From: Prevotella intermedia ATCC 25611 = DSM 20706
GTDB taxonomy: Bacteria > Bacteroidota > Bacteroidia > Bacteroidales > Bacteroidaceae
DNA: 64,000 nucleotides
Direction of reading: 5' to 3'
NCBI RefSeq assembly: GCF_001953955.1
Contig: NZ_CP019300.1
Location: 1,798,001-1,862,000, forward strand
The notes under the pieces are model-generated. The model saw only the letters and a program-made list of their open reading frames with translations. It was not told the origin of the DNA and did not search any database. Positions 9,219-62,243 of the stretch are shown in pieces (the first letter of the stretch is position 1; the number at the start of each line of letters is the position of its first letter). The translations under genes were made by a program, and so were the position numbers.

Positions 9219-9306
9219 ATCTACACGTTGAGAAATATTTACTTACATGTAAATAAATTCTTACTTACACGTAGAAAAATATTTATTTACACGTAAATAA
9301 TTTGCC
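9219..9306. repeat. Array A: four 22-bp units, ACRYGT family
   Basis: Units begin at 9219, 9241, 9263 and 9285, each exactly 22 bp. Each has a dyad core of the form ATTTACACGTAAAT (variants cTTACATGTAAAT, cTTACACGTAGAA) and an AT spacer close to AAATATTT. The array is framed by CGAATT on the left and AATTTGCC on the right. It lies between a terminator and the men promoter. Same family as the arrays at 19179, 25776 and 43021. Confidence 0.9.
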
Positions 9307-9434
9307 GTACTGCCGAAAAACGGCGAACGACAAGCGGTTTAAAGGCTATTTTACAGATGTTTCGGTAAGCTCAAAGTTTTACCGAACGGCAATAGAATTT
9401 CATATATTAGTTTCGTTATCTGATAGTTTATTGC

Positions 9435-9442
9435 TAACTTTG
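9435..9442 (+). promoter_or_regulatory. -7 element (TAACTTTG) of the menaquinone operon
   Basis: TAACTTTGC lies about 69 bp before the first gene of the operon (ATG 9511); no other promoter-like site is seen until the end of menE. Confidence 0.6.
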
Positions 9443-9510
9443 CAGTAGTTAGCTGCTATCAGCTATGAAGTATTAGTCATTAAACACATCTATTTATACA
9501 TAAAAAAGTA

Positions 9511-9933
9511 ATGAACGTAGACAAGTACAGTGCCCGTTTAGAGAACGAAGAGGGGTTGAGCCGCACCTTGGGTATGCGCTTCATATCAACTCCTGAGCCC
9601 GATACACTGATGGCAAAAATGGCTGTTGATGATAGAAACAAGCAGACATTCGGATTCCTTTCGGGTGGTGCCACGTTGGCATTGGCAGAGAATGTGGCAG
9701 GCGTAGGGTCTATGGCACTTTGCGACGGCAAAATGGCTTTGGGCATAAACGTAAGCGGAAACCACGTTCAGGCTATGCCCTATGGCGGTACGGTTACGGC
9801 TTATGCACGCATTCTGCACCAAGGGCATAAGTTGCACGTATGGCACATAGACGTAAAGAACGATGAAGGAGAACTCATTTCGTCGGTGCAGGTTACGAAC
9901 TATATCGTTCATTCACAAAAGAAAGAGGAGTAA
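9511..9933 (+). CDS. menI: Hotdog thioesterase, probable DHNA-CoA thioesterase
   Basis: 140 residues, single hotdog domain of the PaaI/YdiI type. The core GGATLALAENVAGVGSMA carries the expected catalytic Glu60, followed by LGINVSGNHVQAM and HVWHIDVKNDEGELI, a pattern close to the E. coli DHNA-CoA thioesterase YdiI (MenI). It is the first gene of the menaquinone operon, 16 bp before menF. Hydrolysis of 1,4-dihydroxy-2-naphthoyl-CoA to DHNA is the natural role; the specific substrate is inferred from gene order, the fold is not in doubt. Confidence 0.8.
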   Translation: MNVDKYSARLENEEGLSRTLGMRFISTPEPDTLMAKMAVDDRNKQTFGFLSGGATLALAENVAGVGSMALCDGKMALGINVSGNHVQAMPYGGTVTAYARILHQGHKLHVWHIDVKNDEGELISSVQVTNYIVHSQKKEE

Positions 9934-9948
9934 AGAAGAGTCTTGACT

Positions 9949-10965
9949 ATGCGTTCGTTTGCTATTTACCGATTGCCTTTTGCCGAAGAATGTACAATGT
10001 TGGTGCAGCATTCCGCACCTTCAGAGTTGTCGTCGCTTACCGAATTAGACGGCAAGGAAGGCTTTGTAATTGCACCGTTCAGTCCGTCAGCCGATTGTCC
10101 CATACTACTTTTGCAGCCCGACGAAGTGCGTACGATGCCTGTAAAGGAGGTGCAGTCTTTAGCAAAAAAGGAAGAAGAAGTAAACGAAAAAGAAGCAGAC
10201 AGAACCAAATATCACAGAGATTTTGCTGCCTTTCATAAAGAATTAGCAAACAACAAGTTTGCTAAAATAGTGCTCTCGCGTTGTGTGCAGGAGCAAATTT
10301 CCCACGATTTACAACCCGAAGAGGTGTTTTGGCAGGCTTGCAAGAAGTATCCACGCCAGTTTGTAGCCCTCTTTTCCACCCCACAATCGGGCATTTGGCT
10401 GATGGCAACGCCCGAAATACTGCTCGATGGCAATGGTAAGGAATGGCGGACTATGGCTTTGGCAGGCACAATGCCTTACAATGAGAACGGAGTAGAATGG
10501 TCGGCAAAGAACAAGGCAGAGCAACAGTACGTTTCTCTCTATATAAAAAGGTGCTTGGAACGCTGTGCCGATGAGATAAAGGAAGAAGGAGCATACACCA
10601 CGCAGGCTGCCGATTTGGTGCATCTGCGCACCGACTTCAGTTTCAAGCTACGCCCCGATGCAGCCATAGGACAACTTCTGTCCGACCTTCACCCAACACC
10701 TGCGGTTTGCGGAATGCCCAAAGACGAAACAAAGGCATTCATTCTTGCCAACGAATCGAACAAAAGACTTTATTACAGTGGCTTTGCAGGACCGCTAAAC
10801 CTACAAGGCAACACGCACATTTATGTATCGTTGCGCTGTATGCAGATGCAAACAGGGGTATGCAACCTGTATGCCGGTGGCGGGATACTGAAAGAAAGCA
10901 CGGAAGAAAGCGAATGGAAAGAAACCGAAGCCAAGCTATCGACAATGCGACAACTACTTCGTTAA
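9949..10965 (+). CDS. menF: Isochorismate synthase (menaquinone pathway)
   Basis: Converts chorismate to isochorismate. 338 residues from the ATG at 9949; a TTG two codons earlier (9943) is the only alternative. Chorismate-binding enzyme signatures are present: FAKIVLSRCV, WLMATPEILL, TMALAGTMPYN, and the C-terminal HPTPAVCGMPKDET and YAGGGILKESTEESEWKETE with the metal-binding glutamates. It is shorter at the N-terminus than E. coli MenF, as is usual in Bacteroidetes. Followed by menD after 15 bp. Confidence 0.93.
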   Translation: MRSFAIYRLPFAEECTMLVQHSAPSELSSLTELDGKEGFVIAPFSPSADCPILLLQPDEVRTMPVKEVQSLAKKEEEVNEKEADRTKYHRDFAAFHKELANNKFAKIVLSRCVQEQISHDLQPEEVFWQACKKYPRQFVALFSTPQSGIWLMATPEILLDGNGKEWRTMALAGTMPYNENGVEWSAKNKAEQQYVSLYIKRCLERCADEIKEEGAYTTQAADLVHLRTDFSFKLRPDAAIGQLLSDLHPTPAVCGMPKDETKAFILANESNKRLYYSGFAGPLNLQGNTHIYVSLRCMQMQTGVCNLYAGGGILKESTEESEWKETEAKLSTMRQLLR

Positions 10966-10980
10966 AACGCAAAAATAAAG

Positions 10981-12651: not shown

Positions 12652-12668
12652 ATAAAAACAATCATAAT

Positions 12669-19178: not shown

Positions 19179-19266
19179 ATTTACGTGTAAATAAATATTT
19201 TTCTACACGTAAATAATAATTTCCATACACGTAAATAAATATTTCTTTACGTGTAAGTAATTCGGC
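19179..19266. repeat. Array B: four 22-bp units, ACRYGT family
   Basis: Units begin at 19179, 19201, 19223 and 19245. Cores alternate between TTTACGTGTAAAT and CTACACGTAAAT orientations with spacers such as AAATATTT. Framed by GACAAATT (left) and AATTCGGC (right). It lies upstream of both divergent promoters (18956 minus, 19428 plus). Confidence 0.9.
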
Positions 19267-21073: not shown

Positions 21074-21293
21074 GCTGCAGACGGTTTATAATGGCAATTT
21101 AGTAAATCTGTAATACTGCTTTGGTAAATCTACAAAGCTGCTTTACTGAATCCATAATGTTGCTTTGGCAAATCAACAATACCGATTTGCTGAAGCTATC
21201 ATAACATCTTAATAAATCGACAGCAACGCTTTGTTGAATCTATAACATCACTTTAGTAAACCGATAACAACGCTTTGCCGATTCTATAATCCC
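21074..21293. repeat. Array G: ten degenerate 22-bp units, GCTTTG family
   Basis: Units start every 22 bp from 21074 to 21272. A typical unit reads GCTTTGGTAAATCTACAA then AGCT; others diverge (GCTTTACTGAATCCATAA, GCTTTGTTGAATCTATAA) but keep GCTTT at the start and AATC in the middle. Some have terminal GCTTTG/CAAAGC pairing. The array lies between a terminator and the 3' end of rlpA, in a convergent gap. No open frame spans it convincingly. Confidence 0.8.
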
Positions 21294-25658: not shown

Positions 25659-25775
25659 CGCCTTCTTCAACCCTACTTTCCCAAGAAGTAAAAAGCGGAA
25701 CAAGCCCCTTGAAAACGCCATAACCCTTTGACGCAGAGCCATTATATTGTAATTAAAACGCTTGTCGGACAAATT

Positions 25776-25863
25776 ATTTACACGTAAAGAAATATTTATT
25801 TACGTGTAAGTAAATTATTATTTACGTGTAGAAAAATATTTATTTACACGTAAATAATTTGCC
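25776..25863. repeat. Array C: four 22-bp units, ACRYGT family
   Basis: Units begin at 25776, 25798, 25820 and 25842, all opening ATTTAC(AC/GT)GTA. Framed by GACAAATT and AATTTGCC, an imperfect inverted pair shared with arrays A and B. Located between the MutS-like gene and the tRNA-Val promoter; 25864-26133 holds nothing else I can support. Confidence 0.9.
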
Positions 25864-26133
25864 AGACTTATACTAAGCCACCTTTTCCCGATTAGAACAA
25901 ACACCTTTTACCTTCATTGGCTAACTCAGTAGACACATCTTTTATACTCATACGAGATAGACAGATGTAAGCCTAAAAAGTTGCGCCGACGAAGCAAATG
26001 CTTGGTCTGACATTCAGCACACAGCACTTTGGTTTGACAAAGGCGCACAAAACGGATTGCGCCCGACAATCTATTTTTTCAGAAATAACAAATAAAAACG
26101 AATTAAAAATTTGGTGGTTAAATAATTTATGTT

Positions 26134-26161: not shown

Positions 26162-26236
26162 GGGCGTTTAGCTCAGCTGGTTTAGAGCATCTGCCTTACA
26201 AGCAGAGGGTCGGCGGTTCGAATCCGTCAACGCCCA
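26162..26236 (+). tRNA. tRNA-Val (anticodon TAC), copy 1
   Basis: 75 nt. Acceptor GGGCGTT pairs with AACGCCC, discriminator A; D-arm GCTCAGCTGGTTTAGAGC; anticodon stem CTGCC...GCAG with loop CTTACAA giving TAC; T-arm with GGTTCGAATCC. No encoded CCA. Confidence 0.95.
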
Positions 26237-26247
26237 CAGGGGTGTTT

Positions 26248-26281
26248 CCCTGTAACCTTTCGGGGTTGCGGGGAGTTTTTT
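26248..26281 (+). terminator. Hairpin between the two tRNA-Val copies
   Basis: CCCTGTAACC / GGTTGCGGGG (two G-T pairs) around TTTCGG, then AG and six T's. It should end most transcripts after copy 1. Confidence 0.7.
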
Positions 26282-26284
26282 AGA

Positions 26285-26359
26285 GGGCGTTTAGCTCAGC
26301 TGGTTTAGAGCATCTGCCTTACAAGCAGAGGGTCGGCGGTTCGAATCCGTCAACGCCCA
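26285..26359 (+). tRNA. tRNA-Val (anticodon TAC), copy 2
   Basis: Identical to copy 1 over all 75 nt. It begins 4 nt after the T-run of the preceding hairpin and has no promoter of its own that I can see. Confidence 0.95.
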
Positions 26360-26376
26360 CAAGAAGACGAGGATAG

Positions 26377-27984: not shown

Positions 27985-29490
27985 ATGACAGAAGAACTCG
28001 AGAACAAAGAAAATCAGTCTGGACAGACTGAGAATAGCCGAGAAGGCTACTCAACTGCCGGACAAGGAAGTTATTACGAAAGAAGCTATCACAGCACAGG
28101 ACGCCCACAACGTCCCCGCATTCAAGCACAACGTGCCTACGGAACTGACCGTGAAAACAATAATGAAGAAGGAGGATTTCGTCCTGAGGGCTTCGGTTCT
28201 AATCTACAAGGAGGTGGCTCAGCCGAACGCAAGACAGGCTATCGCCCACGTACCAGCAGCTATGGCAACAGCTATCAGAACCGCCAACAGCAAGGCGGCT
28301 ATCGCCCACGCTACAACAACGGCGGCGAAGAAGGTGGCTACCAAAGTCGTGGCGGCTACCAGAACAGACAAAACAATTACAACAACCGTGGTGGCTACCG
28401 TCCTCACTACAATACGAACGAGGGCGAAGAAGGAGGCTACCAGAATCGCCAACAGCAAGGCGGTTATCGCCCACGCTACAACAACAATGGCGAAGAAGGT
28501 GGTTACCAGAGCCGTGGCGGATATCAGAACAACCGTCAAGGCGGTTATCAGAGCCGTGGCGGATACAACAACAACCGCCAAGGTGGCTATCAGAGCCGTG
28601 GCGGATACAACAACCGTGGCTATCAGAACAACCGTCAGGGTGGCTACAACAACCGCCAAGGTGGTTACGGACAGCAAGGTGGCTATCGCCCACACAATGC
28701 CAACTACGACCCAAATGCAAAATATTCGCTCAAGAAGCGCATAGAATATAAGGAGGAGAACATCGACCCGAACGAACCATTGCGTTTGAACAAATACCTC
28801 GCAAATGCAGGTGTTTGCTCACGTCGTGAGGCTGATGAGTTTATCCAAGCAGGTGCAGTAACTGTGAATGGTGAAGTAGTAACAGAACTCGGAACAAAGA
28901 TTTTGCGTGCCGACGAAGTGAAATTCAAAGACCAACCAGTTTCTCTCGAAAAGAAGGTATATGTTCTTTTGAACAAGCCAAAGGACTATGTTACCACAAG
29001 CGACGACCCACAACAGCGTAAAACCGTCATGGACCTCGTGAAAGGTATCTGCCCAGAGCGCATCTACCCAGTAGGACGCCTCGACCGCAATACTACGGGT
29101 GTGCTGCTGCTTACCAACGATGGCGACCTTGCAAGCAAGCTTACTCACCCTAAGTTCTTGAAGAAGAAGGTTTACCACGTATTCCTCGACAAGCCTGTAA
29201 CACCACAGACGCTTCAGCAAATATCTGACGGTATTGAACTTGAAGATGGAGAAATCAAGGCTGATGCGATTGAATACGCCGACGAACGCGACCAAAGTCA
29301 GGTGGGAATCGAAATCCACAGTGGCAAGAACCGCATTGTTCGCCGCATCTTCGAGAGCCTCGGCTACCGCGTTGTAAAGCTCGACCGCGTACAGTTTGCA
29401 GGTCTTACAAAGAAGAATCTCCGTCGTGGCGATTGGCGTTACCTCACCGAACAAGAGGTAGATATGCTTCGTATGGGAGCTTTTGAATAA
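27985..29490 (+). CDS. rluB: RluB/RsuA-type pseudouridine synthase with long RGG/YN-rich N-terminus
   Basis: Pseudouridylates rRNA. 501 residues. Residues about 20-245 are low complexity: dozens of GGY, NRQ, SRGGY and YRPRYNN units built from Gly, Arg, Tyr, Asn and Gln. The enzyme begins near 260 with an S4 RNA-binding domain (LRLNKYLANAGVCSRREADEFI), then the catalytic motif VGRLDRNTTGVLLL with Asp367 and the C-terminal KNRIVRRIFESLGYRVVKLDR. The head resembles eukaryotic RGG/prion-like RNA-binding regions and probably binds RNA or favours condensation. Glycine-rich heads are known on Bacteroidetes RluB proteins, but the length here is striking. Function beyond the synthase is inferred. Confidence 0.9.
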   Translation: MTEELENKENQSGQTENSREGYSTAGQGSYYERSYHSTGRPQRPRIQAQRAYGTDRENNNEEGGFRPEGFGSNLQGGGSAERKTGYRPRTSSYGNSYQNRQQQGGYRPRYNNGGEEGGYQSRGGYQNRQNNYNNRGGYRPHYNTNEGEEGGYQNRQQQGGYRPRYNNNGEEGGYQSRGGYQNNRQGGYQSRGGYNNNRQGGYQSRGGYNNRGYQNNRQGGYNNRQGGYGQQGGYRPHNANYDPNAKYSLKKRIEYKEENIDPNEPLRLNKYLANAGVCSRREADEFIQAGAVTVNGEVVTELGTKILRADEVKFKDQPVSLEKKVYVLLNKPKDYVTTSDDPQQRKTVMDLVKGICPERIYPVGRLDRNTTGVLLLTNDGDLASKLTHPKFLKKKVYHVFLDKPVTPQTLQQISDGIELEDGEIKADAIEYADERDQSQVGIEIHSGKNRIVRRIFESLGYRVVKLDRVQFAGLTKKNLRRGDWRYLTEQEVDMLRMGAFE

Positions 29491-32060: not shown

Positions 32061-32161
32061 AATTCAGATGTTTTAAGAACCCAGTGGCGGAATTAAATCA
32101 GTATGTATTCAATTCTACTGATGGGTTTGTTGTTAATATTATTGGGATTTAGATTTAGTTA

Positions 32162-32692
32162 TTAGTTCTTCAACCACTTAAAGGAACGTTTCCCTACGTT
32201 GATGATATAAATTCCAGCTGGTTGCTCGCGCATATCAAGCTGCGCACAGCCTTCTTTGTCTGTTACGACGGTAGCTACTCGGTGTCCTTCGCTCGTAAAG
32301 ACTGTAATTCGACAGCCTGCCGGATAGTTTCTAAAGATAACAAGACTTTGCGAGAAGTTGGTTTGCCCCTGCTGCACGCCCTGTTCTTTTATCTGACCAA
32401 TTCCCGTTGGTTCACGCTCTTCGAAGTGATAATCCTTGAGGTCTTCCAACGCGAAATTCAATTGCTGGTCGTGATAAACAACCGCCAAACTGTCGGCAAA
32501 ATACGATAACTTGGGCTTTTCTCCCAAAAAGAAGATACTTTCGCCCCCTGCCTGCAACTTAACGACAAGACAAAGCGACTTTTCATACTCGTCCTGCGAC
32601 TTATTTTGAGCAACTGACGCATTGACTACGCTTAGCGCACCGCTCCACAAGCCGAGCACTAAAGTAAATAAGAGTTTTGTTTTAACTTTCAT
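32162..32692 (-). CDS. Exported protein with Por-like (T9SS type A) C-terminal domain
   Basis: 176 residues. Signal peptide MKVKTKLLFTLVLGLWSGAL, a short domain with LKLQAGG-type strand pattern (LCLVVKLQAGGESIFFLGEKPKLSYFADSL, with the recurrent ADS and DLKDYHF elements), and a C-terminal beta sandwich (VTVFTSEG-like CRITVFTSEGHRVATVV, then REQPAGIYIINVGKRSFKWLKN). The GIYII and basic end match T9SS sorting tails. It looks like a minimal carrier of the recurrent Prevotella tail module. The role is unknown. Confidence 0.7.
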   Translation of the reverse strand: MKVKTKLLFTLVLGLWSGALSVVNASVAQNKSQDEYEKSLCLVVKLQAGGESIFFLGEKPKLSYFADSLAVVYHDQQLNFALEDLKDYHFEEREPTGIGQIKEQGVQQGQTNFSQSLVIFRNYPAGCRITVFTSEGHRVATVVTDKEGCAQLDMREQPAGIYIINVGKRSFKWLKN

Positions 32693-32757
32693 GTAACTAA
32701 AGATTTATAATAATACAATAAGTTTGATATTAGTAGTTGATTGCTTCTTTCTATTTA

Positions 32758-32765
32758 CAAATATA
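32758..32765 (-). promoter_or_regulatory. -7 element (TATATTTG) of the two secreted-protein genes
   Basis: Minus-strand TATATTTG 66 bp before the start at 32692. Confidence 0.5.
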
Positions 32766-32945
32766 TACATTATAGTTCTAACAAACAAGCAAACTCTTCT
32801 GATTTTATTGTTTTTAACACTCCTTTCTTCTTCAAGCCAGTACGGTAAAACATCTTCCTCATAGAGCGTCAGCCGTCATAAAAGGTGCTATGCGACTGCA
32901 TTTCTACAAGAGGTCATTATCCATTCCTATAATACTTATAATATT

Positions 32946-33077
32946 GGACACGTTTGTCCAATAAGTTGGATTCATTTGTCCAACTAATTAGACTCGTCTG
33001 TCCAATAGATTGGACAAGTGTGTCCAATTAACTATACTCGTTTGTCCAATTAGTTACACGCATTTGTATTATACAGC
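32946..33077. repeat. Array F: six 22-bp units, GGACA/TGTCC family
   Basis: Units start at 32946, 32968, 32990, 33012, 33034 and 33056. The first is GGACACGTTTGTCC plus the spacer AATAAGTT; GGACA/TGTCC form a 5-bp dyad around 4 nt. Later units keep TTTGTCCAA or a close variant and drift elsewhere. The array sits between two divergent promoters (32758 minus, 33164 plus). Confidence 0.85.
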
Positions 33078-33163
33078 CTATTAAAGTTTCCAAAAGCTCA
33101 ATATGTATCTTTTTGTCGGAAAAATCATCATTTTTAGCTATTGCAGTATTATAAGAATTGTTG

Positions 33164-33171
33164 TATCTTTG
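33164..33171 (+). promoter_or_regulatory. -7 element (TATCTTTG) of the ICMT-like gene
   Basis: TATCTTTGC about 99 bp before ATG 33270, leaving a long leader. Confidence 0.6.
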
Positions 33172-33269
33172 CACCCAACTAAAATTAAAACGTAAAAACA
33201 GGGTGTCCTATTCTACAACGAGTGACTTCCTGATTAGCTAAAAAAATATTATATCAATTCATTAAAATT

Positions 33270-33791
33270 ATGGAATACATTATTATTACATTCATTTTTT
33301 TCTTTGCTTTGCGATTAGTTTCCCTTTCGTTTTCTATTCGTAACGAAAAACTCCTGCAAAAAAAGGGAGCAAAACAATATGGTAAATTCAACTCGCTTCT
33401 GCTGACATTGGCACATATAGCCTATTATTTTGGCGCACTCTACGAAGCGCATACAAAAGGAACCGATTTCAATACTGTTTCGATTACAGGAGTAAGCATC
33501 ATGGCATTTGCCTATGGAATGCTGTTCTATGTCATCTATAAATTGAGAGACGTATGGACGGTAAAACTTTATATTGTTCCCAACCAACGCATCGAGCGGA
33601 GCTTCCTGTTCAGGACAGTACGCCACCCCAACTACTTTTTGAACATCATGCCTGAACTTGTCGGCGTGGCACTACTCTGCAACGCATGGATAACCCTTTG
33701 TATAGGATTTCCATTGTATTTGTGCCTGCTCATTGTTCGCATCAGACAAGAGGAAGATGCGATGAAAGAACTTTGGAGCACAGCAGATTAG
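33270..33791 (+). CDS. ICMT-like integral membrane methyltransferase
   Basis: 173 residues, about four hydrophobic segments (IIITFIFFFALRLVSLSF, LTLAHIAYYFGALY, GVSIMAFAYGMLFYVIYKL, PELVGVALLCNAW plus CIGFPLYLCLLIV). The cytosolic motif TVRHPNYFLNIMPE and the C-terminal RIRQEEDAM match the isoprenylcysteine carboxyl-methyltransferase family, which methylates membrane-embedded small molecules or lipids with SAM. Bacteria lack prenylated CAAX proteins, so the substrate is probably a lipid or quinone-like molecule; that is inference. Monocistronic. Confidence 0.85.
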   Translation: MEYIIITFIFFFALRLVSLSFSIRNEKLLQKKGAKQYGKFNSLLLTLAHIAYYFGALYEAHTKGTDFNTVSITGVSIMAFAYGMLFYVIYKLRDVWTVKLYIVPNQRIERSFLFRTVRHPNYFLNIMPELVGVALLCNAWITLCIGFPLYLCLLIVRIRQEEDAMKELWSTAD

Positions 33792-33844
33792 AGAATTACC
33801 CTCAAATTCTTTTCGTAGAAACAATACCTTAACTTATAACAGAA

Positions 33845-33884: not shown

Positions 33885-33935
33885 TCGTTAAATCAGAAAA
33901 ATATAAATCAACTCTGCGTCTTCGTTCTAAACACT

Positions 33936-36900: not shown

Positions 36901-39900
36901 GTGCTGTGGCTGGCATTGATGTCTACCGTACCGAAATCCGACAGTTGAATGTTGAGTTGCCCACGTGCAGCCCAACCACCTTCATTGTTGAACTCGAGCA
37001 AACGCATTTCGTTCACCCACACTTCACCGCTCTTCTCGCTGTTCGAGAGGTTGCGTACACCGATTATCATCGTCTTTATCTCACCCAATGTTGGATTACC
37101 CATCACGCTGACACGGTTGGCAGGGCGTTTATCGTCGTACACAGAGAACTCCTTATTATAGCTTGCCGTGCCGTTTCCGCGTCCCTCGTTGCGTTTCTTC
37201 TTCACATCTGTGAACACCGAAATAGGCACATCGAGCATATTTTCTATTGGCCAAACCGCCTCACAATCCTGTCGCGAATACTTGTCGTACTGCTTTTCGG
37301 GCGTCAGTTTCAACGGTATTTCGTATTCATAGTAGTTGTTCTTGTAGTCGGAACCCAAACGAACAAACACCGCCAACTGATTGTCGGCAAGATTAGTAAC
37401 GTTCGGTTTGAGCGCATTGGCGTGCACAAACATCTGCAAACGCTTGTATTGGCGAATGTCGAGCGTAGTGTTTTTATAAACCGCTTTCGATTCCTTGTTG
37501 CCCAAATTGTGTACCGTCATTGCCAACGCCTGCTCGTTGCTCTGCACAAGTTGTGGCTGTGAAGGGTCTTGCTCGCGCGAAATACCCGGAGGAAGCACAT
37601 AGTTTACAGGCGTTTTGTCGTTGTTTTCCTCAATGCTCACCGCACCAACAGACATTGTTCCTGATGTTGAAGCAGAGTTGGTAAGGTTTTGCTGATACTG
37701 ACGCCACTCTCCACGCACGAGGTCGAGCGTTGCAAAGCGCATCACGATAGGCTTCTCAAAGTTTGTAAGGAACATACGCATAAAGCGAATGCTCGTGAAA
37801 TCGTTGATGCCACCTACACGTTTCTGATATTCTCGCACAGGAATGCGGAACTGATACCACGTAACAGGTGCGCTTCCGCCTTTGCGCAGCGGTGCGACAG
37901 TTTCTCTCTTATCAACGATATAGTTTTGTCCTACCACCAAATCTTCCGGTCGAATGCTTATCTTATACTGATAGTACTTTTCGTATTCGTTGAGCGTATA
38001 GTCTTGATTTATATCTTCAACATCGGGTCCTGCCTTGTACGATGTGTCGTAACGTTCGTTGCGGCTGTCGCTATCGGGCGAGTTTCCTTGCGGATTGTTG
38101 ATATACTTGTAGCGTTGAAGTATGGGTGCTTGTATTCTATCCCAGTCTGATCCACGGAAATAATGGTAGTTGTCGTTGGCAGGGTCAGCCCAGATAGAGT
38201 CGAACACAGCCTGATTGGTGTGGCTGCGAGCGTATGTCAGGAACGCCTGATAAGAAGGGAAGTTACGTTCTTCCTCGTCGTTGAGTCCGTTGAAACCAAC
38301 ATCTTGCAAAGCACGACTGCCACTTGTTGTCGCAAAAGCGTATGTTACAGTCGTCTGTGTCGGTATCTTACCCCATTGAGTGGTTGTCCACGCCTGACTG
38401 CCATCTACTGGCATACCGCTTTCATAGAACTTCTTGCCGTCGCGCAGCACATCTTCCGAAACCTCACCAAGGTTTATGTAGAAGTCGCCACCGTAGAGAT
38501 TGCCATCAGCCTGTTTGCTTGAATAGATGAATGGGTCGAGCAACCAGAACTCAATGTATTCGATATTCGCCATCTCAAAGTCATTCGTATCGAGCTTGCG
38601 CATCATACCACCCCACTTCTGGCGTGGGTTTGGCAAGCGTCCGTTGATGTCGAGCGTCGGACTGAAGTTGTAAGGACCACGCTCTGTCGGATAGTAAGCA
38701 AGGTTAAGAACAGACAACGTAGATGTTGAACCGTTGTAATTGCTTTGTTCGCGGTTAGGGAACAACTCACGCGTGTAAACCTCTCGGACGTAGAAGTTCG
38801 ACAATTGTTCAAGGTCGCTCTTGATATGGGCAGGCGTCAGCGAACTGCTGATACGTGTAAACAGTGGGTCGATGTTGTACCACGCCAACAAACTGCGGTT
38901 GAAACCACTGCGAAGTGTTGCCTTATCGGTAGATTCAGGGAAGTCGGAAGGCACGCTCGATATAATCCAAGTAGTAGGTTGGCTTACATCGATTGTATTC
39001 TTTGCATTCTCGAAGTCGTCCAAATACGACGCCCTGTCTTGTGTTCCGCTGCTCTGTCCTGCTATCAACTGTGCAAATTCGGCAGAGAACGAGATATGAG
39101 AAGGTTGCGTAAGATGCAGGAAAGGAATCTTGTCGAGCATATTCGTGAGCCACTGGCTTTCCTTCTTCCAACTCATATTGAGTCCCCAAATAGTGTTGTT
39201 GAGCGGTTCGGCACCCATATTCACCTTTGTCGTCAGTGCCTGTTCAGACAGGTGCATAAACGTACCGCCAATCATAAAGTTCTTCGAGAAGTCGTATTCC
39301 CAGTTCAAACCGAACATCGTTTTGCGCTGTTGCCCATAATCGCTTTGGCTTTCCAACGAAACGTTTACCGATGTACCCGCATCTATAATGCTCTGATTCA
39401 ATATCGTAACCTCGCCCGCATTGTAATCGACGCTATAATCCGAGCCTTCCGTCAGACGTACACCGCCTGCCGTTACCACCACCGAACCTTGCGGAACGTT
39501 GTATGCACCCAGCGAAATAACGTTGGCACTTGTTCCCCGATACTGTCCCACAAGCTGGTATTTGTCTTTCTCTGCAATTTGCTTTGCTATGGTTTTGGTC
39601 GAATCGTACAGCTCTGTGAAGGCATACTTGCTTGCCTTTTCAGCTGCAACACCTTTTGAAACCAAGTAGTTATACATATATTCGCCAAAAGGTTCGGCTG
39701 CTGGAAAGAACACACGACCGTTAGAAATCGTGTAGCCTTCTACATAGTCGAAGTATCCGTTCGGGTGTGGATTGTTGTTGTTATCCAAGCGGTCTGCCCC
39801 TAATACCTTTATCAAAGTCTGGCTTTTCACCTGTGGTTCGGGGATATAAGGAAGGTAAACGCCTGCCGTATCGCTCTGAAACTTAACGTCCAAGCGGAAC

Positions 39901-41546
39901 TTGTCGCGTTCAACCGTTGAGGCAAGATAATAAACGTTCTTCATCATCAAGTCCCAGTTGGCTTGCTTTGGATTGTTGCTTGTGTTCTTCAACGACTTCA
40001 CAAACAACGCTTCCGAAACATCGGTGCGGTCGCTTGAAAACTCTCCGACTTGGTAGGTTACGCCTCCAGAGGTGTATTCGTAGGCGATGGCAAGCACTTG
40101 GTCGGTCTGCAATCCTGTACGCAAAGACACATAGCCCAATGCCTGATTGACGGTGTATTCTGAACTGTTGAGCAAACGGGCACTCGATAACTTCTCGTAG
40201 TCGGTACCACCCACAAGTCCTAAACCGTCGAGCACGGTAGACGTTTGGTCTATGTTGCGGGCTTGCGGGTGCCCCTGTGCAATGGTGCTGTATTCGCTGT
40301 TGGCATTGTTCGATGGCACGTTGCCACTTCCGACGCCCCACAAATCGGTACGGCTCACCTTTGCATTCTCTCCCAAATCGCTCAGTGCCACGATGTTTCG
40401 GGTATTGCTGCTTACGCCTGTCTTATTGGTTACCCATATCTCCACACGGTTTATGGTGATGCCAGTGGTTAGGTTGGGCAGGGTTTTCATTGCGTCGTCG
40501 TAACGCGAGCGGAACGTATGAGCCAAAAAGAAGTGTCGGTTTTCCTCGTAGTCGGCAGCTGAAATCTCGAACGGTGTGAGCTGCTTACCGCCTTTCGAGC
40601 TTACGCTCTTGTTGGAAGACTTCTTCTGCGACAACACCGTTTGCAGCTTCAGCTTGCCAAACTGCATATCGGTTCTGATACCAAAGAGCGACGATGCGCC
40701 CTGTACCAACGAGTTGTTCGACGGAAACGACACGTTACCGCCTTCCACAAGTTTTATTATTTCGTCTTCCTTGCCTTCGTAACGCAGCTTGAAGTTTTGC
40801 GCATCAAAGTCGAATGTAGCGTCGGTGTTGTAGTTAAGGTTCATATTCACCTTGTCGCCAACCTTTCCGTTCACATTCAAATTTATCTTTTCGTCGAAGT
40901 TCATCGTTGTCATCTTGCGGTTTCTGATGGGCAACGATGGGTTGTCGATGTTTTTCAGCGTAGCACCAAAGCGCAGTTCGGCTGTTCCCTGCGTTCTTAC
41001 ACGCACGCCACCGGGACCGAATATCTTCTCTGCAGGACCGAGTGCGAAGTGCATATCCGTAAAGTCGAACTTCTCTTTTCCTTTCTTTTCTAATATCTCC
41101 TTGTTCTTCTGGCGATAGTAATCGGCAAAACTGCGCTTCTCGCTCCACGCCCTGTACTCTTCGGGCGTCATCATAATAGGTGTTGTAATATAGGTGTCGC
41201 CTATCTTGTTGCCTATTATATACATGTTGAGCGTGTCGTTGTATTCCACGCTCTGCTTCAGATTTTCGGGACGAGCGAGGTCGTAAGAGCCTTGCTCTAA
41301 GTCGTCGTGGGTTATGGGTGTGGTGCGTTGCACCTTCCAACGTGGGTGCAGCAGCGAGTCGGGAATGTCCTCGTTCTCCAATTCAACGTCCAATACATTT
41401 GCCTTCTTCGTTGTGTCGGGTGGCGCAACCATCGTCTGCAATGCGCTTACAAATGGCAACACATTCGCAAACGAGCGTCCCAAAGCCAACAGACTGATGC
41501 CTGCAAGCAACATAAGAATGGATAATATGTATTTTCTTTGTTTCAT
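33936..41546 (-). CDS. sprA: SprA/Sov, outer-membrane translocon pore of the type IX secretion system
   Basis: Giant beta-barrel that moves T9SS cargo across the outer membrane. 2536 residues, matching the 2300-2500 of Flavobacterium SprA and Porphyromonas Sov. N-terminal membrane/signal segment (YILSILMLLAGISLLALG). Throughout are alternating polar/hydrophobic barrel strands and SprA-type stretches such as FGPGGVRVRTQGTAELRFGAT, the DKVNMNLNYNTDATFDFDAQ region, and SQPTTWIISSVPSDFPES. The C-terminus ends on a strand (HDFGVSLKLSLTR), the typical barrel end. Directly downstream of ruvA (76-bp gap), an order often seen in Bacteroidales. Its likely cargo in this window is the M6 protease and the 32162 protein. 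Confidence 0.96.
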   Translation of the reverse strand: MKQRKYILSILMLLAGISLLALGRSFANVLPFVSALQTMVAPPDTTKKANVLDVELENEDIPDSLLHPRWKVQRTTPITHDDLEQGSYDLARPENLKQSVEYNDTLNMYIIGNKIGDTYITTPIMMTPEEYRAWSEKRSFADYYRQKNKEILEKKGKEKFDFTDMHFALGPAEKIFGPGGVRVRTQGTAELRFGATLKNIDNPSLPIRNRKMTTMNFDEKINLNVNGKVGDKVNMNLNYNTDATFDFDAQNFKLRYEGKEDEIIKLVEGGNVSFPSNNSLVQGASSLFGIRTDMQFGKLKLQTVLSQKKSSNKSVSSKGGKQLTPFEISAADYEENRHFFLAHTFRSRYDDAMKTLPNLTTGITINRVEIWVTNKTGVSSNTRNIVALSDLGENAKVSRTDLWGVGSGNVPSNNANSEYSTIAQGHPQARNIDQTSTVLDGLGLVGGTDYEKLSSARLLNSSEYTVNQALGYVSLRTGLQTDQVLAIAYEYTSGGVTYQVGEFSSDRTDVSEALFVKSLKNTSNNPKQANWDLMMKNVYYLASTVERDKFRLDVKFQSDTAGVYLPYIPEPQVKSQTLIKVLGADRLDNNNNPHPNGYFDYVEGYTISNGRVFFPAAEPFGEYMYNYLVSKGVAAEKASKYAFTELYDSTKTIAKQIAEKDKYQLVGQYRGTSANVISLGAYNVPQGSVVVTAGGVRLTEGSDYSVDYNAGEVTILNQSIIDAGTSVNVSLESQSDYGQQRKTMFGLNWEYDFSKNFMIGGTFMHLSEQALTTKVNMGAEPLNNTIWGLNMSWKKESQWLTNMLDKIPFLHLTQPSHISFSAEFAQLIAGQSSGTQDRASYLDDFENAKNTIDVSQPTTWIISSVPSDFPESTDKATLRSGFNRSLLAWYNIDPLFTRISSSLTPAHIKSDLEQLSNFYVREVYTRELFPNREQSNYNGSTSTLSVLNLAYYPTERGPYNFSPTLDINGRLPNPRQKWGGMMRKLDTNDFEMANIEYIEFWLLDPFIYSSKQADGNLYGGDFYINLGEVSEDVLRDGKKFYESGMPVDGSQAWTTTQWGKIPTQTTVTYAFATTSGSRALQDVGFNGLNDEEERNFPSYQAFLTYARSHTNQAVFDSIWADPANDNYHYFRGSDWDRIQAPILQRYKYINNPQGNSPDSDSRNERYDTSYKAGPDVEDINQDYTLNEYEKYYQYKISIRPEDLVVGQNYIVDKRETVAPLRKGGSAPVTWYQFRIPVREYQKRVGGINDFTSIRFMRMFLTNFEKPIVMRFATLDLVRGEWRQYQQNLTNSASTSGTMSVGAVSIEENNDKTPVNYVLPPGISREQDPSQPQLVQSNEQALAMTVHNLGNKESKAVYKNTTLDIRQYKRLQMFVHANALKPNVTNLADNQLAVFVRLGSDYKNNYYEYEIPLKLTPEKQYDKYSRQDCEAVWPIENMLDVPISVFTDVKKKRNEGRGNGTASYNKEFSVYDDKRPANRVSVMGNPTLGEIKTMIIGVRNLSNSEKSGEVWVNEMRLLEFNNEGGWAARGQLNIQLSDFGTVDINASHSTDGFGGLEQGVNARKKETNTDVTVTTSLELGKFFPDKAKVTAPLYYSVTKNESRPKYNPLDTDMQLDAALDGAANQHERDSIESIAVTKRTTTNFSLSNARVGIQNKRHPMPYDPANFSFSYSHSHAHTTGETTVYENEDNWRGAMNYNWTPVYKSLSPFKKLIKSKSKWFDIVKRFEMNWLPQNVAFNTEITRNYYELQQRDMDSAEKNMLPLTFSEQFLWNRDFAVRWDLTRNLHLNFQSATHAEIEEPYTPINKDLYPDRYEAWKDSVWTSLKNFGTPLDYQQNFTLSYQLPLNMLPIFDWVNADANYNSAYTWVRGAKQENGTSLGNTITTNRTLNINGTLNLERLYNHIPFLKKTNERFNKSRPSINKSGSLEGRGRIDTGNLAEQLNKELGGDTKKKKDSETEKKKALPKNAKSFEQEVTIPADTTIVVSHSKKTKRIVVSLKDADGHSVKLKWKKMDENRLKLYNKTDSIMRLKLTVTPKEPLDNKGWYKTAQCVARALMMVRTASISYRNQYSMSLPGFMPMIGDAFGQTRRSGVMSPGLNFAFGAIDDSYIERARERGWLLVSDSIATPASTNKTEDLQLRATLEPIRDLKIDLNASRMETVSKSVQYMYAGNPTTQSGTLTMTTISIGTAFESQGNANNGYHSATFEKFAKSLDDYRSRVEARYIGANYPMSMGGGKFDPRVGTVNKYSSDVMIPAFLNSYTSMSGNGLNIFPKLKSLLPNWTIRYSGLSRLPFFQNIFKSVNINHSYKSIFAIGSYQSFSTWQEYMNGLGFVKDATSGAPIPSSMYNISQVSINEAFSPLLGIDVTLQNNLTARLEYRQTRVLSLSMTSVQVNEAMSKDWVVGFGYRINNVNLFGGRNSRLVKNTKKKGNQQDQQNSNTQSVSSKNSGGINRDLNLRLDLSYRKQASITRDIATITSAASSGNTAFKASFVGDYTLSRLITASIYYDIQINTPLLSSSSYPTTTHDFGVSLKLSLTR

Positions 41547-43020: not shown

Positions 43021-43174
43021 ACTTACACGTAGAGAAATATTTACTTACGCGTAAAGAAATATTTATTTACGTGTAGAGAAATTCTTATTTACGTGTAGAG
43101 AAATTCTTATTTACGTGTAGAGAAATTCTTATTTACGTGTAGAGAAATTCTTATTTACGTGTAAAAAAATTACA
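43021..43174. repeat. Array D: seven 22-bp units, ACRYGT family, in the HU-ruvA-sprA leader
   Basis: Units start every 22 bp from 43021 to 43153. The four starting at 43065, 43087, 43109 and 43131 are identical (ATTTACGTGTAGAGAAATTC then TT), a sign of recent tandem amplification; the outer units are divergent and include one ACGCGT variant. The array fills nearly all the sequence between the promoter at 43184 and the start codon at 42963. Confidence 0.92.
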
Positions 43175-46291: not shown

Positions 46292-46956
46292 TGGAAATTA
46301 CAGTAGCGTATCTTCAGGAAGCCTTCAGAAAATACAACGAAGAGATTTTCGGAAACGCCCTTCCTATGCCCAACTTGAGGGTGTCGAACGCCAAGCGGAG
46401 ATTGGGTTCGATGCACTGTCGCATACAAAAAACATGGGGAAAGACGCACCGCAGTTTCACCATCGTGGTGTCGAACTATTACGATGTGCCACTATCGCTT
46501 ATCGAAGACACCCTTATTCACGAAATGGTACACTACGAAATTGCATACAAAAAGCTGAAAGACACATCGGCACACGGCACGTTGTTCCGCCAAAGAATGG
46601 ACGAAATAAACCGAAAATACCATCGCAACATTACCATAAGCAAACGAATGACAGACTATGCGCCACGCAAGAACGACCCAACGGAAACCTATTTGGTGTT
46701 GGCAATAGAGATGAACGATGGCTCACACCTGCTTAGTTCCGTAGCCCGCACAGTATTGGCAGACTTGGAAAGGCAAATAAAAAGAGTGGAAAAGATAAGC
46801 AACTTCTGCTGGTATGTTACGCAAAATGCCTATTTCCGCAACTTCCCGAAGGTGCGAACCCTCCGTGCCCGCTCGGTTTCCACAGAGGTTTTTACCAACC
46901 TTACTGCGCAAATGACACCTGTAAGAGATAAAAATGGGTGGGTTGAAATGCTGTAA
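46291..46956 (+). CDS. SprT-like zinc metalloprotease domain protein
   Basis: 221 residues from ATG 46291. Zinc motif HEMVHYEIAYK with a later His (SAHGTLFRQRM) matches the SprT/Spartan fold, which in eukaryotes digests DNA-protein crosslinks. Coupling to a DNA helicase by a one-base overlap supports a joint role in DNA repair; that is inference. The gene's stop codon lies inside the left end of repeat element E1. Confidence 0.85.
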   Translation: MEITVAYLQEAFRKYNEEIFGNALPMPNLRVSNAKRRLGSMHCRIQKTWGKTHRSFTIVVSNYYDVPLSLIEDTLIHEMVHYEIAYKKLKDTSAHGTLFRQRMDEINRKYHRNITISKRMTDYAPRKNDPTETYLVLAIEMNDGSHLLSSVARTVLADLERQIKRVEKISNFCWYVTQNAYFRNFPKVRTLRARSVSTEVFTNLTAQMTPVRDKNGWVEML

Positions 46957-47137
46957 ATATTTTTCATAAAAATAACTATCACTTAACTCTCTTTCTATCA
47001 ACGCATTACAAAACCTATTGTTTTGCATTGCAAAAGCGGCTGTTTTGCACGGTAAAAGCGTAGGTTTTGCGTTGCAAAAGAGCCACTTTCGCAACGTCAA
47101 ATCGAAATTATCATTTTCCCTCAGAATTATCTTTACA
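46952..47137 (+). repeat. Element E1: TGTAAA-ended element with five 22-bp units, TTTTGC family
   Basis: About 186 bp. Core array 46999-47108: five 22-bp units, the middle ones TTTTGCATTGCAAAAGCGG, TTTTGCACGGTAAAAGCGT and TTTTGCGTTGCAAAAGAGC plus 3 nt each; TTTTGC/GCAAAA form a 6-bp dyad around 3 nt. Left flank TGTAAATATTTTTCAT, right flank AATTATCTTTACA; the ends match as inverted repeats at 10 of 13 positions. In the convergent gap of sprT and the C1 peptidase gene. Confidence 0.85.
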
Positions 47138-47261
47138 AAATGAAGCCTATGTTTTTGCGGTATTGAAGATGCTTTCAGTAACTGCCTTAATCGGGAAGAA
47201 GAAAAACAAATCCTTATCGTATAGCTTTTGACTGCACCTGTTGCGCGCGTACATTATAAAT

Positions 47262-53220: not shown

Positions 53221-53265
53221 ACTTTTCGTTCAAGCGAAATAGAATATTCGATAAACTAAAGAAAG

Positions 53266-53300
53266 AAGAAAGGAAGCCCATATCGGGTTTCCTTTCTTTG
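53266..53300 (+). terminator. Terminator after pgk
   Basis: AAGAAAGGAAGCCC pairs with GGGTTTCCTTTCTT (one bulge), then TTTT after a short gap. Confidence 0.75.
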
Positions 53301-53396
53301 CTTTTATTCCCTATCTGAACGTGAATTCGTCATAAGAAACACGCCAGTATATTACAAACTCACATTATTCTACGAACGAAAATGAGGCGATAAATA

Positions 53397-53582
53397 TGTA
53401 AATATTTTTCATAGTCATAATCATCGCTTAATCATCTAACTATCAATACGTTACAAAACCTATTGTTTTGCGTTCCAAAAGCGGCTCTTTTGCACGGTAA
53501 AAGCGTAGGTTTTGCAACGCAAAAGAGCCGCTTTCGCAATGTCAAAACGCAGTTGTCATTTTTTAAGAGAATTATCTTTACA
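53397..53582 (+). repeat. Element E2: TGTAAA-ended element with five 22-bp units, TTTTGC family
   Basis: Core array 53444-53553: units with TTTTGCGTTCCAAAAGCGG, TTTTGCACGGTAAAAGCGT and TTTTGCAACGCAAAAGAGC as their first 19 nt, with degenerate outer units. Left flank TGTAAATATTTTTCATA, right flank AATTATCTTTACA as in E1. Between pgk and the fabI promoter; 53583-53789 shows nothing else I can support. Confidence 0.85.
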
Positions 53583-53789
53583 AAACTAAACCGAAAAAGC
53601 CTCACAGTTTCATCGGTGAGTTTGATAAAAAATATCTATGAGATTGCGTGCTTAACCTATTTTCTTATGCCAAGCCAACGCCTACTTGAAGACTTCGCAC
53701 ATCGTTCTTAGATACGCACGGATAGGGTGAGGTGAAGTGGGAAAACCCTATTTAACAATCAAATAGGTTAGTTTTCCAACAATTTTTAG

Positions 53790-57419: not shown

Positions 57420-57467
57420 TACATCTTTGTAATTGCAGTTGAGCCGAATGGCTCATACGAAATAGAA

Positions 57468-57505
57468 GCGAACCAATGCTTGCAGTGAGCGTTGGTTCGC
57501 TTTTT
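57468..57505 (+). terminator. Terminator after the porin gene
   Basis: GCGAACCAA / TTGGTTCGC perfect stem, then TTTTT. Confidence 0.85.
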
Positions 57506-57566
57506 CGTATTCATTCACTGCCACTAAAAAGGCAACAGAACTTAGGCGGAAACAAGGTAATAAAAG

Positions 57567-57753
57567 TGTAAACATTTTTCATAAGCATAACTTTCACGCA
57601 ACCACTTAATTATCAACGTTTTGCAAAACCTATTGTTTTGCATTCCAAAAGCGTAGGTTTTGCACGGTAAAAGCGGCTCTTTTGCATCGCAAAACCTACG
57701 CTTTCGCAACGTCAAAGCGCAATTACCATTTTTCAATAGATTTTTTCTTTACA
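57567..57753 (+). repeat. Element E3: TGTAAA-ended element with five 22-bp units, TTTTGC family
   Basis: Core array 57614-57723. The order of the spacer words GCGTAGG and GCGGCTC is swapped relative to E1 and E2, and the last inner unit ends CCTACGC. Left flank TGTAAACATTTTTCATAA, right flank TTCTTTACA. Lies between the porin terminator and the next promoter. Confidence 0.85.
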
Positions 57754-57868
57754 AAACAGAGCGTATTTTTGTTAAAATCAGACCGAAACAATAAAAAGAG
57801 ATTTGCCCACTACCGAAGTTCCGTCAAACACCTATAAGGCTCGCAATAAGCAAAAAAATGGTGAAATA

Positions 57869-61370: not shown

Positions 61371-61383
61371 TGGAAACATCGAG

Positions 61384-61432
61384 ACAGGGCGAAGAAAGCT
61401 ACTGAAAAGTGGGCTTGCTTCGCCCTGTTTTC
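61384..61432 (+). terminator. Terminator after recA
   Basis: ACAGGGCGAAG / CTTCGCCCTGT perfect 11-bp stem with a 23-nt loop, then TTTTCT. Confidence 0.8.
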
Positions 61433-61455
61433 TATTCAGAAAAGAAGAAAAGACA

Positions 61456-61998
61456 ATGGAAAAAAACACAACAACCAACTTTGAAACTATCTTCAAAGAC
61501 GACCTTTATCAATATTTGCTATCACACAACGAGGTAGACGAGCGGTTGCCCGAAGCTCCCGACTTGGACGAACTGTGGCAGAAAATAGCCGAAGCCTATA
61601 TGCCCGATGCCATACGCGAGTTTCCCAACTACCCAACGGTTGCACTTGGGTGGATAATGTACGTCGGAATGGCAGTTGCAAAATACTGGGACGAGGACTG
61701 GGAACTATACAGCAAGGTAGAAAACCTGTATGCCTACCTGCGCGACCAAACCGATTTCGACCATACCGACGACTATATTCGCGAAAAGGTTCTACTGCTC
61801 AATGCCGAAGAAGCCAACGCCTTGGAACGTCTTGTGGGCGAATGTGCCGCACGAACTTACAGCCAGTTGCGCCGTTTAAACATCGAGCCAAGTACCAAAG
61901 AGGCTTACCGTACATTTGTAGAAGCACTTCATCAGCTTTACAATTTCGGTGTAGCCATAGAGTTGAAGCGATTAGGCTACCGTATGACGGCTATGTAA
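61456..61998 (+). CDS. Conserved hypothetical helical protein
   Basis: 180 residues, acidic, no signal peptide, largely helical (FETIFKDDLYQYLLSHNEV, YPTVALGWIMYVGMAVAKYWDEDWELY, LNAEEANALERLVGECAA, YRTFVEALHQLYNFGVAIELKRLG). It starts 85 bp after recA, beyond that gene's terminator. Seen beside recA in related genomes as far as I recall; family and function not identified. Confidence 0.75.
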   Translation: MEKNTTTNFETIFKDDLYQYLLSHNEVDERLPEAPDLDELWQKIAEAYMPDAIREFPNYPTVALGWIMYVGMAVAKYWDEDWELYSKVENLYAYLRDQTDFDHTDDYIREKVLLLNAEEANALERLVGECAARTYSQLRRLNIEPSTKEAYRTFVEALHQLYNFGVAIELKRLGYRMTAM

Positions 61999-62007
61999 TA
62001 AAAGAGC

Positions 62008-62066
62008 CAAAACTACAATCATACAGGCTGAAACATGCAGCAAGCTGACGGTGTAGTTTTGTTCTA
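62008..62066 (+). terminator. Terminator after the 61456 gene
   Basis: CAAAACTACA / TGTAGTTTTG with a long loop, then TTCTATTTTT. Confidence 0.7.
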
Positions 62067-62077
62067 TTTTTCCTTAA

Positions 62078-62243
62078 ACAATTCTGTTAAAAAGTGATAA
62101 CTGCGCTTTGACTTTGCAAAAGCGTAGGTTTTGCGTTGCAAAAGAGCCGCTTTTACCGTGCAAAACCTACGCTTTTGGAACGCAAAACAACTGGTTCTGC
62201 AAAGCGTTGATAATAAAGAAGTTACACAACAGATATTTTTACA
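62078..62243 (-). repeat. Element E4: inverted copy of the TTTTGC-family element
   Basis: Reverse complement orientation of E1-E3. Core array 62100-62209; read on the minus strand the units contain TTTTGCGTTCCAAAAGCGT, TTTTGCACGGTAAAAGCGG and TTTTGCAACGCAAAACCTA, the same order as E3. The distal end TGTAAAAATATCTG is diverged. It lies in the convergent gap before the GH25 gene. Confidence 0.82.

Follow-up and report, generated by a model that had tools for sequence, protein, structure and literature searches.

The window analysed here, a stretch of 64,000 nucleotides from Prevotella intermedia ATCC 25611 = DSM 20706 (contig NZ_CP019300.1, positions 1,798,001 to 1,862,000), contains ten intergenic arrays of short tandem units. 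The ACRYGT family is represented by arrays of four units at 9219..9306 (identified by TRF and a 22-nt row print) and 19179..19266, by a four-unit element at 25764..25867 (previously placed at 25776) that is an inverted repeat throughout, with 50-nt arms that are 80% complementary, and by an array of seven units, four of them identical, at 43021..43174. A GCTTTG-family array of about nine units lies at 21096..21293 (previously 21074) and a GGACA/TGTCC-family array of five to six units at 32946..33077; the arrays of these three families are given without strand. Copies of the TTTTGC family are found on the forward strand at 46954..47140 (previously 46999; located by profile search), at 53399..53586 (53444) between the genes for phosphoglycerate kinase and enoyl-ACP reductase, and at 57569..57757 (57614), with a further copy in reverse orientation at 62074..62253 (62100). 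The first-pass annotation had read a 22-bp period in all ten, and this is borne out: TRF reports period 22 in nine (score at least 40), and in the tenth, at 53444, the period is clear in a print of 22-nt rows and the profile search recovers a full copy. The pattern is in fact wider than claimed, as the four families proposed are all present in the window but the genome holds more, including TGACGTCA and AAGCTT types. The description of each unit as a dyad plus spacer suits the TTTTGC family (a 15-bp dyad and a 7-bp spacer), whereas the ACRYGT unit reads as a palindrome over nearly its whole length.

The larger families are dispersed through the genome. The ACRYGT family occupies 40 distinct places genome-wide, window included (both-strand matches merged by us, 40 of 44 candidates scored), compared with five for the GGACA family and one for the GCTTTG family, again counting the window arrays. 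For the TTTTGC family, a profile of 188 positions gave 35 matches of at least 150 bp in 464 kb, or about 200 intergenic copies per genome by extrapolation, and 725 adjacent unit pairs were counted genome-wide; the conserved stretch may extend further left than the profile. An array typically has four units: this holds for 35 of the 45 TTTTGC runs and 14 of the 24 ACRYGT runs with at least two units. In the TTTTGC family the units are flanked on both sides by conserved stretches, a leader and a tail. One full-length copy (L188:975-1161) lies downstream of a PF01212-matching gene that presumably encodes tryptophanase, the tnaA label being our own. The TTTTGC family is PINSR, a previously described intergenic repeat of 188 bp that is reported in 177 and 184 copies, one of them downstream of tnaA, and as specific to a small group (Naito et al.). 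The term “22-bp” does not occur in the main text of that paper, and its passages available to us describe neither 22-bp units, unit palindromes and compensatory spacers nor the other families and their shared register (Naito et al.).

The period is exact and nearly exclusive. Across the intergenic DNA sampled from this genome (N excluded), 65 arrays were detected at lag 22 and no more than two at any other lag from 16 to 40. A sequence-blind self-match scan of 61.5 kb of intergenic DNA, out of 464 kb of the genome, returned 30 places at lag 22, six at lag 44, one at lag 23 and none at the remaining lags from 8 to 60, and one first-order shuffle of the same DNA returned no places. Across five motif scans in two genomes, with distances of up to 70 bp, successive motif copies were 22 bp apart in 237 of 249 cases and 44 bp apart in seven, with other values in five and neither 21 nor 23 in any. 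Perfect 8-bp intergenic palindromes, also paired blind to sequence with N runs left out, lay 22 bp apart 16 times in this genome and 89 times in P. pallens, and 44 bp apart 22 and 65 times, against maxima of 7 and 12 at other distances from 8 to 48. We looked for three patterns that would speak against a common rule: a broad distribution of periods, a single drifting family, and absence from other strains without family structure. Instead, 22 is nearly the only period in the sampled intergenic DNA, the unit letters do not show one family, and families recur in relatives.

Prevotella as a whole and some closely related genera show the 22-bp period too, on units of unrelated sequence; other Bacteroidales loci and 100 kb of E. 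coli almost lack it (N excluded). Units are palindromic (p ≤ 0.05) in 124 of 161 arrays from Prevotella and some close genera; the other 37 do not reach this level, the palindromic fraction being 27 of 48 in P. pallens and one of four in G317. In P. pallens, one family has a recurring leader and tail, judged by eye. The comparison with relatives that the first-pass annotation had proposed showed that arrays persist at orthologous gaps in a genome of about 90% identity (G025), among them the gap of the 19179..19266 array, while the ortholog of the GCTTTG array has different units. Length changes are losses of whole units, such as the three (66 bp) missing from the G025 ortholog of the copy at 57569..57757, and other indels are few: in the comparison with G025, arrays carry two in 944 bases and the remaining intergenic DNA 76 in 6,137, and in that with G344 the counts are none in 279 and 65 in 5,514. 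The core of the 35 PINSR copies likewise holds 409 differences from consensus and a single indel, an exact loss of 22 bp. The PINSR leader, at 24% divergence, has no indel in these copies, so that spacing holds even where the letters vary freely, and the lack of indels is not peculiar to the array. Array identity to G025 (0.847) lies between that of near flanks (0.82) and other intergenic DNA (0.897), and so the letters are not clearly conserved, although five of seven arrays exceed their own flanks.

Gaps orthologous between this genome and P. pallens tend to share array occupancy. In a first set of 47 gap sides the odds ratio was 5.0 (p = 0.014), but permutation within bins of raw gap length gave no excess (16 vs. 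15.3 expected, 1649/5000). As raw gap length contains the array itself, a second test, redesigned after this negative result had been seen, was run on a larger set after deduplication of gaps, with length taken free of arrays; it gave 19 vs. 14.4 expected with class strata only (64/5000) and 19 vs. 14.5 with class and array-free length (18/5000). By gap class, the odds ratio was 18 for tandem (p = 0.0005), 1.36 for convergent (p = 0.53) and 6.3 for divergent gaps (p = 0.31), with some gaps of this genome counted twice because P. pallens has their flanks split. The excess is also subject to further confounders, e.g., a general tolerance of gaps. In none of 19 orthologous gap pairs do the two gaps share a family (two unclassed). 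It is conceivable, although we consider it unlikely, that the palindrome register is an architecture read independently of base sequence in Prevotella and close genera, and that families are replaced wholesale within gaps, so that orthologous gaps would come to carry unrelated arrays of the same geometry.

Several known systems resemble these arrays in part. REP/BIME elements are dispersed intergenic palindromes accompanied by RAYT transposases. The likeness lies in the dispersed intergenic palindromes, but the arrays here stand in strict 22-bp tandem register, and a REP/RAYT system was rejected because no Y1/RAYT transposase (PF01797) match was found in the genome, with a control positive in five of 14 genomes. 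Plasmid iterons of Rep_3 initiators share a tandem unit of about 22 bp, or two helical turns, but are direct repeats at an origin. These were rejected because Rep_3 genes do not track with the arrays: Rep3_N (PF01051) is matched in seven of 40 genomes, and G024, a single contig with arrays, has no match. This genome has one PF01051 match; it lies on the second contig, next to a full PINSR copy. The copying enzyme suggested in the first-pass annotation was not found in either family tested. A CRISPR array was rejected because PINSR spacers, 7 nt long, are not unique but drawn from a few words that recur and are exchanged whole among copies. The kinship that the first-pass annotation suggested with BrickBuilt of Porphyromonas gingivalis, a 23-nt unit in up to 22.8 copies with 19 elements in the genome (PMC4596501), is one of kind only: both combine an intergenic leader, short tandem units and a tail with long predicted stem-loops, but the unit is 23 nt, a distance seen in none of our 249, and the portion of that paper available does not describe families replacing one another over a single register. 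Among the literature matches listed, none described the families other than TTTTGC or the common 22-bp rule, with most subscription journals outside the scope of the search.

Since an exact period is shared over unrelated sequences and non-unit indels are rare, one constraint or mechanism likely lies behind it, as had been proposed; phased protein binding would be one form of it. The reading that we favor, tentatively and with just short of even confidence, is that the arrays belong to dispersed non-autonomous intergenic elements built around a helically phased array, usually of four palindromes spaced exactly 22 bp, bound by a putative dimeric protein. Twenty-two base pairs is about two helical turns, and almost two whole turns in supercoiled DNA in cells, which has about 11 bp per turn. 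Each palindrome would be occupied by a dimeric protein, or by a member of a family of such DNA-binding proteins, all on one face of the helix, and the dimers may bind cooperatively. Selection would then be the cause of the missing indels, with spacing changes of a few bases removed and whole units lost or gained, while recognition sequences would turn over fast and leave each species with its own dominant family in the same register. The different unit sequences within one genome would require several such proteins, or one tolerating many sequences. The 37 arrays below the palindrome threshold, the absence of indels from the PINSR leader as well, the letters that are not clearly conserved and the failure of Rep_3 initiators to track with arrays also count against this reading. 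The elements could serve either the host, in DNA organisation or insulation, or their own spread.

A rather unlikely alternative is that these are MITE- or REP-like selfish elements, each folding into a long hairpin with the 22-nt repeat in its arms, and that a recombinase or nuclease reads the folded strand and spreads the element, the register serving mobilisation only. The dispersed copies of the ACRYGT and PINSR elements and of the P. pallens leader-and-tail family are consistent with this, as are the folds of the arrays, on average more stable than those of shuffles (z −3.2 to −6.7 as DNA, five sequences; z −4.8 to −9.0 as RNA, six sequences). In 26 of 35 PINSR copies, six or seven of the seven positions of spacer 1 are complementary to spacer 3, and among the five copies with a match of 3/7 four fully pair another two spacers; in the long hairpin that joins spacers 1 and 3, 19 of 27 double changes fall in these spacers. 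Such compensatory exchange of spacers points to a folded strand and away from duplex binding. However, hairpin pairs with double changes do not exceed shuffles (8 vs. 7.3, 225/500), and folding alone fixes no unit length of 22. For the runs of small hairpins put forward in the first-pass annotation, no covariation excess was seen within single units, whereas the long hairpin shows some. The ACRYGT element at 25764 is an inverted repeat over its full extent. The ends of PINSR, which in the consensus read by eye form an imperfect inverted repeat with 11 of 14 positions matching, would also fit, but the available passages of Naito et al. state that PINSR lacks terminal inverted repeats, and place about three quarters of PINSR regions in common between two strains, which suggests little recent movement. 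Target-site duplication of PINSR was not convincing (best of 1,568 offset/length combinations, four of 35 copies vs. 0.7 expected), and the lack of a Y1/RAYT match also counts against mobilisation of this kind.

We regard as improbable a mutational process without selection, in which arrays arise and become uniform through slippage and template switching at palindromes, with 22 bp as the step size of an enzyme. The four identical units at 43021, the unit-wise losses, the changed units of the GCTTTG array in G025 and the whole-word exchange of PINSR spacers would all fit it, but the divergent PINSR leader keeps its length without being a tandem repeat, slippage would not keep the unit number at exactly four, as seen in most runs, and we know of no enzyme with 22-bp steps. 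More improbable still are bidirectional transcription terminators or 3'-end RNA hairpins between genes. Stable RNA folds agree with such a role, as does the excess of PINSR in convergent gaps (17 of 35 copies vs. 38 of 157 gaps of at least 120 bp) and its deficit in divergent gaps (5 of 35 vs. 41 of 157), both by crude gene calls. Yet, some arrays touch a stop codon and others lie up to several hundred bp past it, PINSR copies show no relation between their orientation and that of the genes (five same and eight opposite in tandem gaps), an Rfam search of the window matched two tRNAs and no array, and 22 is left without explanation. The phosphoglycerate kinase gene also appears to have its own 15-pair terminator-like hairpin (53265-53299) before the PINSR copy, a weak single match given 25 in the scan overall vs. 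21.2 in shuffles. PINSR orientation followed no clear rule relative to the GC skew of the stretch either (14 and 6 of 20; 7 and 8 of 15). That the arrays stay clear of coding DNA, as first described, holds for long genes; 15 of 35 PINSR copies overlap crude ORFs of at least 80 codons with arrays unmasked, and none overlaps genes once arrays are masked. Small CDSs overlapping PINSR were judged not to be real in the passages available (Naito et al.).

Repeats are usually catalogued by sequence, whereas here a one-geometry rule emerges from a sequence-blind test, in a bacterial group of the mouth, gut and rumen. This rule predicts a specific and findable protein or enzyme. If the arrays are selfish, the Prevotella group would carry a mobilising activity beyond those covered by the searches made. 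Were the register indeed read independently of base sequence, it would define a class of bacterial non-coding elements whose spacing and symmetry, but not sequence, are conserved, and to which homology search is blind. If the arrays are functional, part of the intergenic DNA of Prevotella would be under a constraint that alignment misses.

The ten intergenic arrays of 22-bp units that the first-pass annotation had placed between 9219 and 62100 in the window are all present, with TRF giving a period of 22 for nine of them and the tenth (53444) being clear in printed rows and in a profile search. In a motif-free self-match of intergenic DNA over 66 nt, run on evenly spaced 20-kb stretches of the genome containing the window (G000; 2.67 Mb, two contigs), 61.5 kb at lags 8-60 gave 30 places at lag 22, 6 at lag 44, 1 at lag 23 and 0 at all other lags, and one shuffle of the same DNA gave 0 places. 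A second scan, with a looser threshold, more sequence and lags 16-40 (44 thus being outside its range), gave 65 places at lag 22 in G000 (every other lag ≤2) and 41 in G391, treated here as P. pallens ATCC 700821 (every other lag ≤1). At lag 22 there were 19 places in 12 of 21 stretches (419 kb) from seven more Prevotella genomes, 10 in 9 of 18 loci flanking the phosphoglycerate kinase (PGK) gene in Prevotella and close genera, and 5 in 3 of 18 loci that bear a Prevotella or Prevotellaceae label but are more distant, other lags reaching at most 2 in each set. Samples from outside Prevotella were small, each with 9 to 64 kb of intergenic sequence. Other genera of the family (n = 20) gave 3, in 2 stretches (other lags ≤1), and 43 other Bacteroidales loci gave 1 (other lags ≤2); eight other families of the order and 100 kb of E. 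coli gave 0 at lag 22 in the looser scan, with other lags ≤1 in both. A 23-bp array of AATTTGCACAA units was seen at L083:152 in a genome of another Bacteroidales family (G013), its period being equal to that of BrickBuilt from Porphyromonas gingivalis.

The register is strict. Among 249 successive motif distances of up to 70 bp, from three motif scans of G000 and two of P. pallens, 237 were 22 and 7 were 44; the five off-register distances were one each of 6, 34, 40, 55, and 62, genes having been called with lag-22 arrays masked and a few off-register cases possibly being hidden inside spurious ORFs. Pairs of perfect 8-bp palindromes of any letters were in excess at distances 22 and 44 only. 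Palindromic units (p ≤ 0.05) were found in 124/161 arrays from 13 genomes, part of the loci having been chosen for matches to PINSR, the published 188-bp repeat of Naito et al.; by genome, these were 62/67 in G000, 14/16 in a close relative (G025), 27/48 in P. pallens and 21/30 in the other ten.

The families had been held to be unrelated, and no obvious sequence in common was found among the unit types compared. Unit families elsewhere include CAGATATCTG in P. pallens, GGGAATGACATTCCC in P. multiformis and AGTACT in Hoylesella enoeca (both by eye), TGCATCAAATTGTGGTGCAATC in G024 and AAACGG-CCGTTT types in G202, two other genomes. Some families reach beyond one species, ACRYGT units being shared by G000 and P. 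pallens and TTTTGC-type units by several species. The GCTTTG array is in G000 and G025 alike, but its units differ in G025. PINSR and BrickBuilt are already published; searches of open-access literature turned up neither the remaining families nor a 22-bp rule common to all.

The TTTTGC family is PINSR, equated by length and by a tryptophanase-side copy. Its profile has 188 positions and a profile search found 35 long copies in 464 kb of G000; one complete copy is found downstream of a gene resembling tryptophanase, and the available text of Naito et al. places a copy at this same site. Together with the two-chromosome layout in Naito et al., PINSR suggests the Prevotella intermedia group. In G025, the stretch around PINSR is longer than 188 bp, at ~300 bp (window 53357-53671; e.g., L125:15941-16255), with at least 32 matches of at least 280 bp in the best 40 of 374 candidates, and 6/38 matches >120 bp to it in the G000 sample extend equally far right, the query itself counted. 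On the second contig (L187, near 377912), a full copy lies ~475 bp upstream of a Rep_3-like initiator gene. By crude gene calls, PINSR gaps (n = 35) were 17 convergent, 13 tandem and 5 divergent, compared to 38, 78, and 41 for all gaps of at least 120 bp (n = 157) and 6, 10, and 4 for other arrays (n = 20). A terminator-like hairpin lies between the PGK gene and its PINSR, a single hit in a scan whose total was near the shuffled mean.

Within PINSR, dyad units alternate with 7-nt spacers. Of the 35 copies, 26 have spacers 1 and 3 complementary at 6-7 of 7 positions, four have them so at 5 and five at 3; in four of the last group two other spacers pair fully. Spacer words are exchanged as whole blocks (GCGGCTS/SAGCCGC or GCGTAGG/CCTACGC). 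In alignment A1, the covariation score of the long hairpin was 0.093 vs. 0.073 in shuffles (matched by 0/500), although kinship among sequences can by itself produce such an excess. Cells with changes on both sides numbered 27 vs. 19.5 (7/500), 19 of the 27 being in spacers, and the number of pairs so changed was not above shuffles (8 vs. 7.3; 225/500). The runs of small hairpins proposed in the first-pass annotation are not supported for PINSR, hairpins within its units having no covariation excess. Considering the spacer pairing and the covariation of the long hairpin, with no excess within single units, folding of the strand, as DNA or as RNA, may be relevant to PINSR.

One PINSR copy is short by exactly one unit, the G025 ortholog of the PINSR at 57569 has three units fewer (66 bp; read from the alignment), and the array at 43021 has seven units, not four. 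Tallied per copy and not per event, differences from consensus across the 35 copies numbered 409 in the core, with one 22-bp loss, 372 in the leader, with 0 indels, and 153 in the tail, with 4 small indels. In alignments of at least 700 bp to G025, arrays had 2 indels in 944 bases and other intergenic DNA had 76 in 6,137; for another genome, G344, aligned under the same length limit, the counts were 0 in 279 and 65 in 5,514. Array letters are not specially conserved, since array identity to G025 (0.847) lies between that of near flanks (0.82) and other intergenic DNA (0.897).

Comparison of orthologous gaps, which had been suggested as a check, gave a divided outcome. Among 93 gap pairs of G000 and P. 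pallens, 48 were filled in neither, 20 in G000 alone, 6 in P. pallens alone and 19 in both (OR 7.6, p 6.7e-5); where both flanking genes were orthologous (39 gaps), the counts were 28, 4, 2, and 5 (OR 17.5, p 0.004). The excess stood in the 93-pair set when stratified by gap class and array-free length (19 shared vs. 14.5 expected; 18/5000 permutations reach 19), and there was no excess of shared arrays in the smaller set stratified by raw gap length or in convergent gaps taken alone. A simple alternative is that tolerant gaps were filled again by independent insertions. In 17/19 shared pairs a TTTTGC, ACRYGT or GGACA array in G000 faces a AGATATCT array in P. pallens; in the other two, one side lies outside all motifs used. 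The PGK gap holds PINSR in G000, AGATATCT units in P. pallens, GGGAATGACATTCCC units in P. multiformis and a further family in MAG SUG711, with an array present at 3/19 close loci.

Several synteny breaks coincide with array gaps. Blocks beside array-bearing gaps (window 53225-53748, 57423-57845, and 32076-33949) lie apart from one another in P. pallens, and in G025 sequence from near window 53741 is fused to the array at 25861; the available text of Naito et al. ties the repeats to rearrangement. Other features of the window include two tandem tRNA-Val (tac) genes (26162-26360), 47 bp apart with equal Rfam scores, an ORF (27985-29490) that is glycine/asparagine/arginine-rich by eye with internal 42-bp and 21-bp tandem repeats (28496-28668), and a minus-strand ORF of 2536 aa (33936-41546) conserved in P. 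pallens at ~81% DNA identity.

Any mechanism must cover units that are palindromic, few in number and spaced at exactly two turns, a length maintained even where the sequence is free to vary, and the multitude of unrelated families. Mutation, transcription ends and unforeseen causes share what the two following readings leave. A hairpin-reading mobile element without phased binding is rather unlikely as the cause, although mobilization of folded strands accounts for the dispersal and the spacer covariation. Phased binding has close to an even chance of being the reason for the register: a putative dimeric protein, phased on the array, would account for spacing and palindromy. Palindromy in P. 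pallens is weaker than the total suggests, and we therefore give phased binding marginally less weight, and the hairpin-reading element and mutation marginally more. Phased binding and mobilization may both hold, if the binding protein is itself the mobilizing enzyme.
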